DNA of 64,000 nucleotides, taken from NCBI GenBank assembly GCA_023150615.1, contig JAKLKO010000001.1, forward strand, positions 62,001 through 126,000, read 5' to 3'. Positions within the stretch are counted from its first letter, which is position 1; each line of letters opens with the position of its first letter. Below are positions 48,063-57,276 of the stretch, in pieces. The translations under genes and the position numbers were made by a program. The stretch is from Phycisphaerae bacterium. Its GTDB lineage: Bacteria > Planctomycetota > Phycisphaerae > UBA1845 > UTPLA1. The notes under the pieces were generated by a model that was not told the origin of the DNA, did not search any database, and worked only from the letters and a program-made list of their open reading frames with translations.

Positions 48063-49001
48063 TCAGGAAGCCTTTCGTTCCAGGTCCTTGCGCCCCGCAT
48101 CGCCCACCGATCGCGCGGAACGATCGTCACCCGGCATCTCCATGACGCCCGGCCGCGCCGCCGCGCCGCATTCGTCCGCGCCCGGAAACTCCATCCGGAA
48201 CTGGACGCCGCCGCCCGCGCGGTTCCGCGCCCGGATCGTCCCGCCGTGCGCCGCGACGATCTGGTGCACGATCGCCAGCCCCAGGCCCGTACCCGTCGGA
48301 CGCGTTGTGAAGAACGGATCGAAAATCTGCTCGATCCGCTCCTCCGGGATCCCGCACCCGCTGTCCCAGACCGTCCACCGCGCACCGCCCGCGCCCCACG
48401 GCTCCACCTCGATACCGATCGTGCCCGCGTCGCCGACCGCCTGGATCGCGTTCAGCAGCAGGTTCATCAGCACGCGCTGGAGCCGCAGCGCATCGATATA
48501 GACGCGACACCGACGCGATGACTCCGCGCACACCACCTCGATCGCCCCGCCCCGCAGCCACGGCCCGACCTGCTCCAGCGTCGGCTCGATCACCTCGTTT
48601 GCCGTGCACCAGCTCACCTCCAGAACCGGCTCCTGCGAAAACTCCAGGATCTCGTTCACCAGCCGATTCAGCGTCCGCACGCCGGTCCCGATCTTCCGCG
48701 CCAGTTCCAGCGTCGCCGGCTGCGCGGCCAGTTCCTGCTCCAGCACCGACGCGTAGAGCGAAATCCCGCCCAGCGGATTGCGAATCTCGTGCGCCAGCCC
48801 GGCCGCCAATTGCCCCAGCGATGCCAGGCGCTCCCGACGGGCCAGCTCGCGGTTCTTGGCCGCCAGTTCGCCATGCAGCCGCGACACCTCGCGCGACAAC
48901 GACTCGTACGCCTGCTTGAGACGCTCCGTCACGTCGTTGTACGACAGCAGGATCGCCCCCAACTCCTGCTCGCGCGCCGTCATCGATTCGAGACTCGTCA
49001 T
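48063..49001 (-). CDS. Soluble sensor histidine kinase paired with the sigma-54 activator
   Basis: Phosphorylates the response regulator at 46637. ATG 49001 overlaps the FlgN-like gene by four bases; upstream codons are unrelated. The 312-residue protein has a coiled-coil N-terminus (TAREQELGAILLSYNDVTERLKQAYESLSREVSRL), HisKA with GLAHEIRNPLGGISLYASVLE (His in AHEIRNP), N-box LLLNAIQAVGD, G-boxes DSGCGIPEERIEQIFDPFFTT and GTGLGLAIVHQIVAAHGG. No membrane helix, PAS or periplasmic sensor is present, so it is cytosolic and perhaps reads assembly state, as FlrB/FleS-type kinases do. Confidence 0.92.
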   Translation of the reverse strand: MTSLESMTAREQELGAILLSYNDVTERLKQAYESLSREVSRLHGELAAKNRELARRERLASLGQLAAGLAHEIRNPLGGISLYASVLEQELAAQPATLELARKIGTGVRTLNRLVNEILEFSQEPVLEVSWCTANEVIEPTLEQVGPWLRGGAIEVVCAESSRRCRVYIDALRLQRVLMNLLLNAIQAVGDAGTIGIEVEPWGAGGARWTVWDSGCGIPEERIEQIFDPFFTTRPTGTGLGLAIVHQIVAAHGGTIRARNRAGGGVQFRMEFPGADECGAAARPGVMEMPGDDRSARSVGDAGRKDLERKAS

Positions 49002-49465
49002 GCGCACTCGTCCGTCACCGCCACTCGCGTCGTCACCGCCGCCGCGGGTCCGTACGCCCGCGCCGCTCGCGATCCATCCGCACACCGCGCCATCTCGCCC
49101 GCCAACTGCCGACGCGATTGCGTTAACCGCTCCACGTCCGTCGCGTCGTCCCGGATCACCGACGCCAGCGTCCGCTCGTTTTCCTCGATCAAGCCCCGCA
49201 CCCGAGCCCGCGCATCGGCGCTCATTGCCGCCACCACGGTCGTCCAGCTCTGCCGAAACGGCGACAGTCCCACGCTGCACGCGCGAAGTTCCTCGACCAC
49301 GCGTTGCCGATCCGCCAGCACGCTCAACAGCGCTGTCGGATCGTCCGCGTCCAGAAGCGACCGCTGACGGTCCGCCAGTTCGCGCAGCCGCCGGTGTGCG
49401 TCGCGCTGCCGCTCCAGCAACCGCATCAGGTGCTCCGCATCCAGCACGTCACTCGCCCCGCGCAC
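48998..49465 (-). CDS. FlgN-like flagellar export chaperone
   Basis: A 155-residue helical protein, DVLDAEHLMRLLERQRDAHRRLRELADRQRSLLDADDPTALLSVLADRQRVVEELRA, which resembles the FlgN/FliT class of four-helix chaperones for hook-filament junction proteins. It overlaps the kinase start by four bases (ATGA), so is coupled to it. FlgK and FlgL are not in this window. The match to FlgN is by pattern (LL..q...L..L..L..E...L...D...L......R..vv..L) and is moderate. Confidence 0.65.
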   Translation of the reverse strand: MRGASDVLDAEHLMRLLERQRDAHRRLRELADRQRSLLDADDPTALLSVLADRQRVVEELRACSVGLSPFRQSWTTVVAAMSADARARVRGLIEENERTLASVIRDDATDVERLTQSRRQLAGEMARCADGSRAARAYGPAAAVTTRVAVTDECA

Positions 49466-49477
49466 CGCCGCACTCCA

Positions 49478-51820
49478 TCAACCCAGCAGTCCCGACGCCG
49501 CAAGCTGTTCCGTCAGCCGCTCCCAGTGCGCTCGATCCGGCATGCCCCGCTCCGCCGCGAATGCCGAATCCGGCAGTTTCCGCAGCAGCCAACGAAGCTG
49601 CTCCAGGCTTCGCCGAGCCGCATCCGACCGCCCCATCCGCAGGTGGCACTGGACGATCTGCAGCGCCGCCGGCAGCACCGTCACGTCGCGCTCGTACCGC
49701 CACATCGCCTCCGAGTACGCCGTCACCGCCTCCGCGTACCGCCCCAGATCGAACAAGCAATCCGCGCGATGCAGGTACGCCACGCGAAGGTACGTCCGCT
49801 CGACCGCCGACAGCGCCGGCTCGTCCTGCGCCGCCAGCGAGCGAATCACATCCACGTAGCTCGCCAGCGCCCGCTCCAGCCGCACAGCCGCCTCGCCCGT
49901 CGGCAATCTCCCGTCAGCCGGCGCGTCCGGAAGCGCCCGACTGCTCCGCCGGTAGCAATCCGCCAGCAAATATCGCCACTGCGCCGCCCGCGCATCGTCC
50001 GGGAACATCGCCAGCGCATCCTCGAATCGCGTCGCCGCCAATTCAAAGCGATCCGATACGCGGTAGATCTCCGCCAGTCTCGCCAGCGCATCCCGGTACT
50101 CCGGCGCCTGCGGCGTCACGTGGGCCTCCGCTCCCGGCGGCTGATCGACAAAGCGACGCAACAGATCCTCCGCCGATCGAGCCCCATCCCCGCCGCTCCC
50201 CAGCAGGCAATCCGCCAGCAGGACCGTCACCCGCGTCGCCTCCACCGTCCGCGCGAACTCTTCAGTCAGGCGCCGGTAGACCCCGATCGCCTCGACCAGT
50301 CGTCCCTGCGATTGCCGCGCCTCACCGATCCGGCGCAGCATCACCGGCGTCATCGATCCGACGCGATGCTCCTCGACGAATCGCTCCATCAATGCCACGG
50401 ATTGATCCAGCTCGCCGGCGGCCTGAAGTTCATCCGCCGCCCGAACGATCGACCGCCCCGCCGAGTCCGCGCTGCCGACCTGCTCGACCGCCAGCGCTTC
50501 GTACGCACGCGCCGCCGACAGGTGGTGCCGCCGCGCCTTGGATGCATCCCCCGCGCCCGCGGCCGCCTTCGCTATCTGCGCATGCATCGTCCCCAGCCGC
50601 TCGGCGAGGAACATCGCCTCCTGCCGATCGCCCGGCTCCAGCAGCTTCTGGCTCATCTCGAAGTAGCGGACCGCGTCCTCCGCGAACCCCTCCAGACGAC
50701 GCCCCTCCAACAGCCGCGCCGCCGTCCGAAGGAACGCCCGAACCGACTCCCGATCGACCGTACCGGAGCCCTCGGGCCGCGCAATCAGATTCACGATCCG
50801 TTCCAGCGTCTCCGCCGCGTCCGCGAACCGATCCAGCAGCACCAGGCTCTCGGCACGGCCGAACAATGCTGCCTCGTGCAGCGGTCCCGCACCGAACGAC
50901 TGAAGCACCTCGTCGAAATAGCTGAGCGCTGCCTGCGGTCGTTCCTCACGATTGTTGATTTCCCCCAGTAGCAGCGTCGTCTTGCCCCACAACTCATCCC
51001 GCGGCAGCCACCCGTCGCGCAGCGATCGCAGCATCGCCTCCGCCTCGTCCCGCCGACCCTTCCGCGCCAGCGTCGAGGCACGCAGGTACGCCACCTCGTC
51101 CCGCAGTACGGTCCCGCCCAGCCGCGGGCCGTAGCGATCGATCAGCGTCTCGGCCTCGTCCAGACGCCCGCGCTCCAGCAGTCGCCGGACCCGCCGCTCC
51201 AGCGCCCAACCAACGTTCACCGACGCCGCGTTGCGATCCGTCAGAACCTGATCGATCAGCGCCTCGACCTCGCGCTCACTCGATGGTACGCGCCCCGCCT
51301 CCATCCACTCGGCCAGCCGCCGGCGCAGCGAGTCTGCCCCGCGACTCGACCGCTGGACCGCCTCACTCAGGATCGACGCCGCGCGCACATGGTCCCCCGA
51401 CCATGCCACGACCTCCGCGCGATGCACCAGGTCGTCGCGACTCTCCGCTCGACCCAGCGCCCGCGCCTTCTCGAACAGCTCAATGATCTGCTTCACGACG
51501 GCCGCGCGGTGCGGTTCGCATCCCTCCTCCGTCCGCCGCAACACCTCCGCCCGCAGGTAATGCACCGCCGCCTTCTGATGGTCCCTGTGCCACGGCTGAA
51601 GGCGGAGCTTCTCGATCGCGTCGCGCGCGTCGGCGAGCCGCCCAGCCTCCAGCAGCACCTCCACGCTCTCGATCCGCCGCTCAATACCCGCCCGCCCCGG
51701 CTCCGCACGAAGTCGAACGACCCCCAGCGCGAAAACCAGCAACGAGACCGCCAGCGCCGGCAATTGCCAGCGCCCAGCCACGATCGGTCGGACCCCAGTC
51801 CAGGCGGAAGTGATGCTCAT
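49478..51820 (-). CDS. Large TPR-repeat protein with N-terminal membrane anchor, flagellar cluster
   Basis: First gene of the flagellar run. ATG 51820 (SITSAWTGVRP) has AAAGGG about eight bases upstream; the longer frame is unrelated. The 780-residue protein has a membrane helix (WQLPALAVSLLVFALGVVRL, residues 18-37) followed by tandem helical repeats across the rest: LLEAGRLADARDAIEKL, LLERGRLDEAETLIDRYG, LARKGRRDEAEAMLRSLRDG, GRYAEAVTAYSEAMW and others, all TPR-like. It faces either the periplasm or the cytoplasm depending on orientation of the helix; the helix after a basic start suggests the periplasm. Partner unknown. It may share a promoter with flgN, kinase and activator. Confidence 0.75.
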   Translation of the reverse strand: MSITSAWTGVRPIVAGRWQLPALAVSLLVFALGVVRLRAEPGRAGIERRIESVEVLLEAGRLADARDAIEKLRLQPWHRDHQKAAVHYLRAEVLRRTEEGCEPHRAAVVKQIIELFEKARALGRAESRDDLVHRAEVVAWSGDHVRAASILSEAVQRSSRGADSLRRRLAEWMEAGRVPSSEREVEALIDQVLTDRNAASVNVGWALERRVRRLLERGRLDEAETLIDRYGPRLGGTVLRDEVAYLRASTLARKGRRDEAEAMLRSLRDGWLPRDELWGKTTLLLGEINNREERPQAALSYFDEVLQSFGAGPLHEAALFGRAESLVLLDRFADAAETLERIVNLIARPEGSGTVDRESVRAFLRTAARLLEGRRLEGFAEDAVRYFEMSQKLLEPGDRQEAMFLAERLGTMHAQIAKAAAGAGDASKARRHHLSAARAYEALAVEQVGSADSAGRSIVRAADELQAAGELDQSVALMERFVEEHRVGSMTPVMLRRIGEARQSQGRLVEAIGVYRRLTEEFARTVEATRVTVLLADCLLGSGGDGARSAEDLLRRFVDQPPGAEAHVTPQAPEYRDALARLAEIYRVSDRFELAATRFEDALAMFPDDARAAQWRYLLADCYRRSSRALPDAPADGRLPTGEAAVRLERALASYVDVIRSLAAQDEPALSAVERTYLRVAYLHRADCLFDLGRYAEAVTAYSEAMWRYERDVTVLPAALQIVQCHLRMGRSDAARRSLEQLRWLLRKLPDSAFAAERGMPDRAHWERLTEQLAASGLLG

Positions 51821-51882
51821 CCTGAGCCCTTTCGGACCGCGCGTCGATCTCGACGCCAGCTCCCGGATCGCATCCTCCTGAC

Positions 51883-51897
51883 GCAACCCGCGCACCC
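51883..51897 (-). promoter_or_regulatory. Weak sigma-54-like element before the TPR gene
   Basis: Minus strand GGGTGC-GCGGG-TTGC has correctly spaced GG and GC doublets and an exact TTGC; the -24 half matches TGGCAC only at three bases. It is 63 bases before the TPR start. Confidence 0.3.
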
Positions 51898-51947
51898 CGT
51901 CTACTCTTGTAACCGGCCATCGGCCGACTTCGCGCGGGCCGGGCCGC

Positions 51948-51975
51948 GCTATGGTGTCCGTTCTATCGGCGTCAA
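51948..51975 (-). promoter_or_regulatory. Possible sigma-70 promoter for the TPR gene
   Basis: Minus strand TTGACG (51975-51970), a 16-base spacer and CATAGC (51953-51948). The -35 matches at five of six bases, the -10 at three of six. Would give a leader of about 120 bases. Confidence 0.3.
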
Positions 51976-52156
51976 ACCCTGCCGAACGCCTGCAATTCTC
52001 GCCTGCCGGATTGCCCCCGTTGCACCGCACGAACGAGACGAACTTGCCCACTCGCCCGAAGCGAAAACCGCGCCGCCAACACTGGTGGAGCGACCATCGA
52101 ACAACCTGTCAAACGCCCCCTTGGCCGCGCCCCCATCCCCGCTGTTTGCGAGCACT

Positions 52157-52549
52157 TCAGAACCCGGGAATCCAGCTCTGAAACTCCTCGCTCGGCTTCG
52201 GTCGGCGCGTCGTCTGCGACCTCTCCACTTCTCGAACCGCGAGCGCATCCACATACCCCCTGGCGATCGCCGACATTCGGCGAACTACATCCATCCCTTC
52301 CCCTTCCTCCGGTACCGTCGCGCTCCCGAGGACAAGCAGCACGACCGGCGGAACGCCCAACCGTCCTGCGATCCGACACAGCCCGTCAATCGACACGCCG
52401 CGCCGCCCGTGTTCGAGCAGGCTCAGGTAGTTTTGCGTCAGTCCGACAGCACGCGCAAGCTCTGATTGCGACACGCGCCGCGCAACCCGCACCTCAGCGA
52501 TCGCCCGTCCGAGCCGCTCCCCATCGATACCTGCGTGCCGCTGCTCCAA
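52157..52549 (-). CDS. XRE-family transcriptional regulator
   Basis: DNA-binding protein of 130 residues with a Cro/CI-type helix-turn-helix: RLGRAIAEVRVARRVSQSELARAVGLTQNYLSLLEHGRRGVSIDGLCRIAGRLGVPPVVLL (residues 12-72). The remaining 55 residues are a short helical tail, ARGYVDALAVREVERSQ, with no ligand domain. The start is TTG 52549, with GGGGAG seven bases upstream. A well-formed promoter (52618-52646) precedes it, and a palindrome overlaps the -35, so autoregulation is likely. The divergent gene at 52866 is the natural second target. Confidence 0.85.
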   Translation of the reverse strand: MEQRHAGIDGERLGRAIAEVRVARRVSQSELARAVGLTQNYLSLLEHGRRGVSIDGLCRIAGRLGVPPVVLLVLGSATVPEEGEGMDVVRRMSAIARGYVDALAVREVERSQTTRRPKPSEEFQSWIPGF

Positions 52550-52617
52550 GAGCTGCTCCCCGATCCGCGGCCCAAGTCGCTTCCCTCCCCGCGGACCAAA
52601 GCCAACTACGGCACGGA

Positions 52618-52646
52618 AGTTTATCCGAGTATTGATCTGTAGTCAA
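52618..52646 (-). promoter_or_regulatory. XRE gene promoter
   Basis: Minus strand TTGACT (52646-52641), a 17-base spacer and TAAACT (52623-52618). Both boxes match the sigma-70 consensus well (five and four of six). The palindrome at 52632-52646 covers the -35, consistent with repression by a protein bound there. Confidence 0.6.
52632..52646. promoter_or_regulatory. Operator-like palindrome 1 (TTGATCTGTAGTCAA)
   Basis: Fifteen bases with TTGAY arms in opposite orientation around a five-base centre. It overlaps the -35 of the XRE promoter. Its partner at 52684-52698 has identical arms and length; centres are 52 bases apart, close to five helical turns. Confidence 0.5.
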
Positions 52647-52683
52647 TTGAAACCATCGTCAATCAATGATAACCAACTTGATA

Positions 52684-52698
52684 TTGATTTATAATCAA
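52684..52698. promoter_or_regulatory. Operator-like palindrome 2 (TTGATTTATAATCAA)
   Basis: Near-perfect palindrome of the same form as the first: TTGAT, five bases, ATCAA. It contains TATAAT at 52690-52695, which could be the -10 for the gene at 52866, although no clear -35 is seen at 16-18 bases. Confidence 0.5.
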
Positions 52699-52865
52699 AT
52701 ACCTGCTCCGACCGCATCCGTCGTACCGCTTCGTGACGTTCCGTTCAGACACGCCTATCCGCACGGATGCCGTTTGATAACGCAGTCCGCCGGCCTTAGA
52801 CTCCTGAGGGAGGCCGGGCGCAGGTTCCCTGTCCCGGCCATCGTCCTCGCGCCTGAGGGACACCG

Positions 52866-54032
52866 ATGCGTCCAAGCCGTCTCATCACCCCGGTCGCGCT
52901 TGCGCCCACGTTTTTCCTACTCGCGCTGCTCGCCCCCGTCGCCGTCGCCGAGGTCGTCGAAATCACCGGAAAAACAACCGCACGTGTGACCCAAATCCAG
53001 GGCGGCAGCCCAATCCAGACGGACTACGCCGAGCAGACCCTTCCCGGCACGGCCACGAATCTGCCGCTTCTCAGCTCGGCCCACATCCAGACGACGAACG
53101 AGTCCTCCGATGTGGTGACCAGCGCCCAGTGCGTCTCGCTTCTGGCGGACCCCCGCGTCGGCAATGCCGTACCGCCCAACGACGTCGGCCTCGACATCGG
53201 CGCCTACGCCGTGGATGGCCAAACCAGCTACGAAGTCGTCGGCAACGCCGTCGAGACGCGCCGCATCCGCATCACGCCGTCGGAAGTCGCCCTCAACGCC
53301 GGCGAGACCGTTCGCATCCGCAGTCTCTTCGCCCTCGCCGGTGCGTTCATCGTCGTCGCCGATGACGCCGACGCTGACCTGACCGGACTCGAGATCGAAG
53401 CGATCTTCAGCATCACGCAGAAACGCCCGAACCAGGAGCCGCAGACGCGTCTGGCCGGCCGCGCGACCTGGACCGGCGGTCCCAATGCGACGCTCACCCT
53501 CACCGGCAGCGGCGTCATCAATCCCACGATGCTCGGACCGGTCGACCTGCTCAGCCCATTTCCCGATCTTGGCGTGTCGGGCGTGCAGATCGCGCGCCTG
53601 CTGCCGTTCCCCGTGCTGTCGTTCGCCTACGAATACGACGTCGTGGTCGATGAAGAATTTGTCCTCGAACTCGTCTTCGGCGCGCACGTCATGACGGTGC
53701 CGCGGAACGTCGGCGTCGCCGCCGTCTTCGGTTTGCCGCAGCGCGCGTTTAACGAATCGCTTCGCGAGGTCCGCGGCGACGACGGTCTCGGCGAAGCGCT
53801 GAGCAACGCCGTCGCGACCTACGTCGACACGACCGGCCAGACGCGCCCGCCGGTCGGTTTTCCGTTCCCTTGGCTGTCCGGTCTGTGCGGATGGTTCGGG
53901 GTCGAAACCGCGCTGGCCACCGCGTGCCTTTGCGTCGCGCCGCTCGGCCTGCGCCGCGCCGCGAAGCGGCGACGCATCGCGCCGCCGCGCAGCGTGACGG
54001 GACGTCTCTTCGATGAACCCCGAAGGCGGTGA
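52866..54032 (+). CDS. Exported protein with C-terminal anchor-like tail, unknown function
   Basis: 388 residues. ATG 52866 follows GAGGGA and opens a signal peptide (RLITPVALAPTFFLLALLAPVAVA, cleavage near 28). The body is beta-rich and low in cysteine, with NPTMLGPVDLLSPFPDLG and VPRNVGVAAVFG, similar to choice-of-anchor secreted proteins. The C-terminus has a tripartite plan: PFPWLSGLCGWFG, a hydrophobic helix (ETALATACLCVAPLGL) and a basic end RRAAKRRRIAPPR, like sorting signals of the MYXO-CTERM/PEP-CTERM type but not a clear member. It is divergent from the XRE gene and likely controlled by it. Function unknown. Confidence 0.75.
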   Translation: MRPSRLITPVALAPTFFLLALLAPVAVAEVVEITGKTTARVTQIQGGSPIQTDYAEQTLPGTATNLPLLSSAHIQTTNESSDVVTSAQCVSLLADPRVGNAVPPNDVGLDIGAYAVDGQTSYEVVGNAVETRRIRITPSEVALNAGETVRIRSLFALAGAFIVVADDADADLTGLEIEAIFSITQKRPNQEPQTRLAGRATWTGGPNATLTLTGSGVINPTMLGPVDLLSPFPDLGVSGVQIARLLPFPVLSFAYEYDVVVDEEFVLELVFGAHVMTVPRNVGVAAVFGLPQRAFNESLREVRGDDGLGEALSNAVATYVDTTGQTRPPVGFPFPWLSGLCGWFGVETALATACLCVAPLGLRRAAKRRRIAPPRSVTGRLFDEPRRR

Positions 54033-56343: not shown

Positions 56344-56472
56344 CGCAACACCCCGCGCCCCGAGTCTCCGTCGCGCCGATCGCGCCGAATCCCTCGGTCC
56401 GCAGCATAGACCGCCGCGCGAACCCATGCCACCGCGCCGGCGTCCTCGCGGTATCAGAGCACGGTGCGTTCC

Positions 56473-57276
56473 ATGATCCGTTGGGCGGCGCGAACCCTGT
56501 TTTCGGTCCTGGCCGGTGGGATCCTCGTCGGAACCGCCTGGTGGGCCGTCGGCGATCACGCGCGCCAAGCGCGGATCAACGAGCTGGAACAGGAACGCGA
56601 GGCCCTCCAACGTGTCGTCGAACGTCTGAAAGACACCCGCCGCGTCGCGAACCTCCTCGTCGTCGACCAGCGTGTCCGACCCGGCTCGACGACCGCCGAG
56701 ACCGTCGTTGACTTCCTCCCGGCCGGACCGGCCGATGCCCGGCGCGGCGCCCACGCGCGTCGGTTCACGATTCCGGGCACGGTCTGCTTCGTCGATGCGC
56801 TCGTCATTCGCTTCATGGACAACTTCGTGGAACGCGGCGACGCCCTTCGCGGCCGGAGCCTGTTTCTGTTCCGACGGATCTTCGGCGAACATCAGCGCCC
56901 CATCGACGGCCACCCGCTCGACGAGCCCGGCGCGGTGCCCGTCGCCTATCGGACCGAGGGCGAACCCGGCCGACACGAACGGAGGCTCTGGCAGCGCTTC
57001 TGGGAATTCGCCGCGGACCCGAAGGCCGCCGAGGCGGCCGGCGTCCGCGTCGCGCAGGGCGAGGCCGTCTATCAGCGACTTCGCGTCGGCCAGCTCTGGG
57101 AACTTCGCATCCGCGCCGATGGCGGACTCGAAATGGTGCTCGTCCCCGTCAACCCCCTCGTCGAGCGCCAACTGGCGCAGCCCGGCGACGACGGACTCAA
57201 CTCGTCGACTTCGCCGCGGCGTGCAACGGCGACTCGCCGCGCAATACGCGAAGCACGTCCTCGATCACTTCGCTGA
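56473..57276 (+). CDS. Membrane-anchored protein with coiled coil, unknown function
   Basis: A 267-residue protein with one N-terminal helix (AARTLFSVLAGGILVGTAWWAV), then a coiled coil INELEQEREALQRVVERLKDTRRVANLLVVDQ (31-62) and a globular part with TVCFVDALVIRFMDNFVERGDALRGRSLFLFRRIFGE. Ends with a basic tail RRAIREARPRSLR. I do not recognise the family. ATG 56473 is used; GTG 56464 is also possible. Its 3' end overlaps the convergent gene at 57197 by 80 bases. Confidence 0.65.
   Translation: MIRWAARTLFSVLAGGILVGTAWWAVGDHARQARINELEQEREALQRVVERLKDTRRVANLLVVDQRVRPGSTTAETVVDFLPAGPADARRGAHARRFTIPGTVCFVDALVIRFMDNFVERGDALRGRSLFLFRRIFGEHQRPIDGHPLDEPGAVPVAYRTEGEPGRHERRLWQRFWEFAADPKAAEAAGVRVAQGEAVYQRLRVGQLWELRIRADGGLEMVLVPVNPLVERQLAQPGDDGLNSSTSPRRATATRRAIREARPRSLR

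Follow-up and report, generated by a model that had tools for sequence, protein, structure and literature searches.

The gene for a small XRE protein and the gene for an exported-looking protein, which are divergently oriented in this Phycisphaerae genome, are separated by an AT-rich patch that contains two palindromes, and the question raised by this locus is which of these genes, if either, is controlled through them. The stretch of DNA that was analyzed, referred to below as the window, is 64,000 nucleotides long, and all coordinates are positions within it. The features on which the discussion is based are the following.

52157-52549, minus strand: gene for the XRE (Cro/C1-type HTH_3) protein of 130 aa (Pfam HTH_3, 5.6e-10), with a TTG start and GGAG upstream
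52618-52646, minus strand: predicted XRE promoter, TTGACT-17-TAAACT, a consensus scan match
52632-52646, no strand assigned: palindrome 1, TTGATctgtaGTCAA, which covers the -35 of the XRE promoter match and extends into its spacer
52647-52662, no strand assigned: looser TTGA-N8-TCAA site, TTGAaaccatcgTCAA, directly abutting palindrome 1
52684-52698, no strand assigned: palindrome 2, TTGATttataATCAA, perfect, its centre 52 bp from that of palindrome 1
52774-52802, plus strand: TTGATA-17-TAGACT, a consensus match (9 of 12) clear of the palindromes and likely the promoter from which the exported-protein gene is read
52845-52850, plus strand: CCTCGC leader element, located before the exported-protein start and shared by 17/17 family genomes
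52866-54032, plus strand: gene for the exported-looking protein of 388 aa, with no Pfam, NCBIfam or PHROG match

Geometry and rarity of the palindromes

The first-pass annotation described two 15-base palindromes with the same arms, lying 52 bases apart. Both are present and the spacing is exact, with the centres at 52639 and 52691, a distance of about five turns of B-DNA. The identity of the arms holds less strictly, as palindrome 1 is imperfect, with four matching outer pairs (TTGA/TCAA) and one mismatched inner pair, the fifth, where T stands against G. When the two palindromes are compared as a 17-nt direct repeat, 14 positions (82%) are identical. The rare AT-rich patch reported for this region was borne out, the GC content of 52618-52710 being 33% in comparison to 60–71% in the surrounding 500-base windows of this GC-rich genome, and so was the looser site between the palindromes, which touches palindrome 1 and, from its sequence, is possibly a weak middle operator.

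A consensus promoter scan of 52000-53000 identified three sites, in comparison to 0.2 in shuffled sequences. The only match on the minus strand is that of the XRE gene (52646-52618), and palindrome 1 overlaps its -35 as had been claimed. The TATAAT noted within palindrome 2 was likewise recovered, as the end of a plus-strand match, ATGATA-18-TATAAT (52666-52695). Further downstream on the minus strand, the XRE leader (52550-52612) can form a G+C-rich hairpin just before the start, with a folding energy of -28.4 kcal/mol (shuffle mean -23.5, sd 2.8), and this stretch also contains a 21-nt imperfect direct repeat.

Across the whole 4.1-Mb genome, the exact pattern TTGAT-N5-RTCAA occurs at three places, two of which are in this patch, and the reversed-pattern control gave none; the third place falls within an open reading frame. 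Shuffles of the whole window lead one to expect 0.02 matches, vs. the three strand-wise matches at two places that were observed. In shuffle tests of the patch, whose borders were set after the finding had been seen, two TTGAY-N5-RTCAA sites were obtained in none of 20,000 dinucleotide shuffles and at least one site in 0.26% of them; a looser test, which accepted any two arm-sharing palindromes irrespective of the arms (spacer 3–9), was passed by 11 of 4,000 shuffles, and the count of TTGA plus TCAA in the patch, which is eight, was reached by none of 5,000. Genome-wide, TTGAT-N1..12-RTCAA is commoner than the reversed pattern (75 vs. 11 strand-wise matches; for N5 alone, 5 vs. 0), and hence controls other than the window shuffles might give a higher expectation. 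A search of the open-licence full-text literature found no mention of TTGAT-N5-ATCAA or TTGAT-N5-GTCAA.

The exported-protein gene and the gene order at the junction

The first-pass annotation suggested that binding of the XRE protein to both palindromes leads to repression in both directions, i.e., of the XRE gene and of the exported-protein gene. This proposal is favored by the divergent orientation of the two genes and by the promoter match that ends in palindrome 2, which agrees with the consensus at 10 of 12 positions, vs. 9 of 12 for the match at 52774-52802. However, a transcript from the palindrome 2 promoter would have a leader of about 165 nt, whereas the second match, which was missing from the earlier annotation and starts 75 bases beyond palindrome 2, is nearer to the gene and stands before CCTCGC. 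All 17 family genomes, our own included (relatives L035–L050; alignment by eye), have the latter element ahead of the exported-protein gene, and its sense-strand density over the family loci is about 0.79 per kb. Based upon a strict pattern, it is preceded by a promoter pair in 10 of these 17 genomes, i.e., in 9 of the 16 relatives, with that of L046 at an atypical distance; the strict pattern is absent before CCTCGC in L038, L041, L044, L045, L047, L049, and L050, with a -10-like hexamer alone in five. Of the two CCTCGC in L050 the later one was used for this count, and the 13 loci L051–L063, of which L056 and L058 lie outside the family set, were excluded from all counts.

The comparison with the relatives also argues against co-repression. 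In this genome, the exported-protein gene precedes a gene for a 100-aa protein and then clpX. Each of the 16 family relatives has the exported-protein gene as well, and in 15 of these loci it is again followed by clpX; in the remaining one, L037, the contig stops at that point. Neither a TTGAY-N4..6-RTCAA site nor a match to the XRE protein was found in any of these relatives in up to 1500 nt upstream of the gene (1192 nt for L039), and an XRE gene with palindromes in this position is thus limited to one of the 17 family genomes, the present one. Due to the occurrence of CCTCGC in all of the family genomes and of the promoter pair in 10 of them, the exported-protein gene most likely has an older promoter of its own at 52774-52802, separate from the palindromes, and a role as their main target is thus improbable for this gene. 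The 16 relatives, as they are without the XRE gene, leave room for new wiring in this lineage, but overall we consider control of the exported-protein gene from the palindromes to be unlikely. The claim of control in both directions consequently stands only in part: an operator at the XRE protein's own promoter fits the geometry and the overlap, whereas the exported-protein side was not supported.

At its C-terminus, the exported protein has a Cys-containing hydrophobic stretch followed by an arginine-rich tail, a layout which we take to resemble a cell-surface sorting signal.

On the other side of the XRE gene is a TPR gene (49478-52051), homologues of which are present in 17/17 family genomes; in 16/16 relatives, homologues of two further window genes, the small gene 48998-49465 and the kinase gene 48063-49280, come after the TPR homologue. 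The XRE gene adjoins the TPR gene only in our genome, the upstream side being visible in 14 of the 16 relatives (in G004 and G015 the contigs end). In two of the relatives, G010 and G003, the gene that is divergent from TPR is a homologue of the window gene 56464-57276. When window open reading frames of at least 120 aa beyond 30 kb were used as queries, the region before the exported-protein gene in 12 relatives gave no match to any other window protein at E 1e-6, except for a weak kinase match (26% identity, L123). The gene order is therefore broken between 49478 and 57276: the stretch from the XRE gene to clpX sits where G010 and G003 have a plain junction of TPR with the 56464 homologue, and the XRE gene and palindromes are located at the join of this stretch with the TPR side. 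From this comparison of gene orders, the XRE-to-clpX stretch appears to have moved in. A regulator situated at such a gene-order junction can mimic a controller of its divergent neighbor, which in this case seems to carry an older promoter of its own.

A candidate operator for the XRE gene

The XRE protein scores 39.5 bits against HTH_3 (gathering cut-off 23), and its structure model, which is of low confidence (mean pLDDT 59.1), has four helices in the HTH region followed by one long helix. Its relatives were sought in genome contigs, viral contigs, phages, plasmids, and whole genomes (overlapping sets of 150 relatives, 392 members of the phylum, and 114 of the order). No ortholog was found in any of these collections; the matches at E 1e-8 or better are 32–47% identical, mainly across the HTH domain, and the same genome contains one additional weak match (39% across 69 aa). 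Among proteins of solved structure, those closest to the XRE protein in sequence are C.BclI (1.4e-6) and C.AhdI (1.2e-5), which belong to a class of self-regulating controller proteins. In the PDB, C.Csp231I was not named among the sequence matches of the XRE protein up to E 5.

Palindromes with exact arms of 6 nt and a spacer of 0–9, lying within 150 nt upstream of the estimated start codons, are present before 16 of 27 XRE homologues in relatives (shuffle mean 7.35, maximum 14 in 100 rounds) and before 25 of 42 in a wider set of homologues (shuffle mean 12.92, maximum 20). A TTGA-N5..9-TCAA site was found in none of 23 other XRE loci (of 29) in up to 350 nt upstream.

The layout of the locus can be compared with that of the motif-8 controller proteins C.Csp231I and C.EcoO109I. 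According to the published accounts, the C.Csp231I gene is preceded by two CTAAG-N5-CTTAG operators to which C.Csp231I itself binds, and the length of the spacer between the operators is critical for binding of the second dimer (PMC4321490); since a shorter spacer blocked the second dimer, a looped pair of back-to-back dimers has been proposed (PMC4321490, PMC3115060). As in these systems, a small HTH protein (a dimer there) is encoded downstream of two 15-bp palindromes, in both cases with arms of 5 bp around an A-rich gap of 5 bp, and with spacing being important in the known systems (PMC4321490, PMC3115060). The locus thus has two 5-5-5 palindromic sites upstream of the gene itself, which is the motif-8 layout. 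In the same accounts, however, the arms are CTAAG/CTTAG, and the gap between the sites is 18 bp for C.Csp231I and 25 bp for EcoO109I, whereas it is 37 bp here. In addition, the motif-8 systems include a restriction-modification gene, whereas none was seen among the five proteins examined here, viz. the XRE protein, the exported protein, the 100-aa protein (sub-threshold Pfam matches only), the TPR protein, and ClpX. The locus is also similar to those of autoregulated Cro/C1-type (XRE) repressors in its HTH_3 domain and its palindromes over the gene's own promoter match, but in contrast to such repressors generally, it has no recognizable adjoining partner gene and is found in a single genome of its family.

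The rare paired sites lie over a consensus promoter match and co-occur with the XRE gene in one genome of the family. Based upon the 5-5-5 geometry of C.Csp231I and the frequency with which XRE genes in the related genomes are preceded by palindromes, the most economical reading of this arrangement is that the protein represses its own gene by occluding the -35. In our view, the palindromes are probably the operator of such an autoregulated orphan repressor, with the exported-protein gene most likely not being the main target. One XRE dimer would bind to each TTGAT-N5-RTCAA site, and occupancy of palindrome 1 would cover the -35 of the XRE promoter and thereby block RNA polymerase. Palindrome 2, being about five helical turns upstream of palindrome 1, would lie on the same face of the helix, and it probably raises the occupancy of palindrome 1 through contact between the dimers, with the intervening AT-rich DNA being bent; the weak middle site may serve as a third contact. 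Overall, this would be ordinary bacterial gene control, to which the locus, if this reading is correct, contributes an example of an orphan XRE gene that regulates itself through two 5-5-5 sites at a wide, five-turn spacing.

A scan for the paired pattern with a gap of 36–38 bp gave 42 loci from genome contigs and 14 from viral contigs. The pair falls within an open frame at least 150 codons long in 35 of the 56 loci, and a convincing XRE gene was found in none of the 56, in searches with the low-complexity filter off and with positive controls; in several of the loci the pair is close to the sequence end, and an adjacent gene might have escaped detection there. The best XRE matches were those in L173 (3.2e-4), where the weak match is about 185 bp from the palindrome pair, L189 (0.003), and L187 (0.006). 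Presence of the paired pattern elsewhere with no tie to XRE genes is what chance occurrences would give.

Among the XRE homologues, three genomes (L015, L019, and L024) have in common the palindrome CACACTCATAGTGTG, which lies upstream of controller-protein-like XRE genes and is likely a conserved operator of these genes.

Other regulators, folded elements and retrons

A regulator encoded elsewhere, e.g., of the LysR or CRP/FNR type, could also use the palindromes to activate or repress the XRE gene. The TTGAT…ATCAA arms resemble FNR boxes, LysR-type regulators, too, usually have paired sites at a distance of about five turns, and the genome-wide excess of TTGAT-N1..12-RTCAA over the reversed pattern (75 vs. 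11) is only partly explained. The spacer of an FNR box, however, is four bases long (TTGAT-N4-ATCAA), whereas it is five bases at both palindromes, and TTGAT-N4-RTCAA is present at three genomic places, none of which has ATCAA. As N5 accounts for only 3 of the 56 TTGAT/RTCAA places over N1–N12, and N6 for 10 (counted by hand), the N5 spacing marks no regulon. When up to two mismatches to the two-site consensus were allowed, eight matches were found elsewhere in the genome vs. six for the reversed control. With no enrichment of the N5 spacing and near-matches so close to the control, an FNR-type or genome-wide regulon found no support, and control of the XRE gene by a regulator from elsewhere seems improbable to us.

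The palindromes might instead be parts of the stem of one large hairpin or small-RNA element, such as a retron-like RNA or the end of a mobile element. On the minus strand, the predicted fold of 52549-52720 is more stable than that of most shuffles (z -2.92), with the G+C-rich hairpin of the XRE leader being included in this stretch, and for the minus strand of 52602-52722 alone, 15 of 300 shuffles fold as well. When the palindromes were kept and the rest was shuffled, however, equally good folds were obtained for 39 of 300 versions of the minus strand and for 177 of 300 of the plus strand, and the inverted-repeat score of the DNA was reached by 85 of 150. A comparison of 51700-53000 with Rfam also gave nothing up to E 0.5, and a structure of this kind is scarcely credible. 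A repeated element was discarded as well, as the genome contains no second copy of the region.

A further reading, which would retain self-regulation through the palindromes, is that the XRE protein is the HTH component that remained when a type VI retron lost its reverse transcriptase and its RNA, and that it now acts as a free-standing switch with a looped operator pair in a wider-spaced C.Csp231I layout, maybe wired to the TPR-kinase genes; we regard this as very unlikely. The best PADLOC model for the XRE protein is indeed HTH_VI, the HTH of type VI retrons (2.1e-14, 51.8 bits), but this score is not distinctive, as many other XRE genes score as high. Of the five top-scoring loci for the XRE protein, L006, L065, L007, and L008 adjoin a reverse transcriptase or a fragment of one, and L064 is without such a match; the scanned reverse transcriptases of L006, L007, and L065 have the type VI retron model as their best match. 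In our genome no match to a reverse transcriptase (RVT_1) was found, and a comparison of three retron-type reverse transcriptases with 51400-53000 gave nothing better than E 0.72. In a phylogenetic tree, the XRE protein was placed with two other XRE proteins, at a low support of 0.47, and not with the retron-linked ones, a group in which L064 was included by eye on account of its short open reading frame, with no reverse transcriptase found there. A retron origin was therefore not upheld, the genome having given no reverse-transcriptase match and the HTH_VI score being unspecific. In L008, the retron-like HTH gene is followed by a reverse-transcriptase match of merely 47 residues, and in L064 a similar HTH gene is followed by the short open reading frame; these two loci could be decayed retrons.
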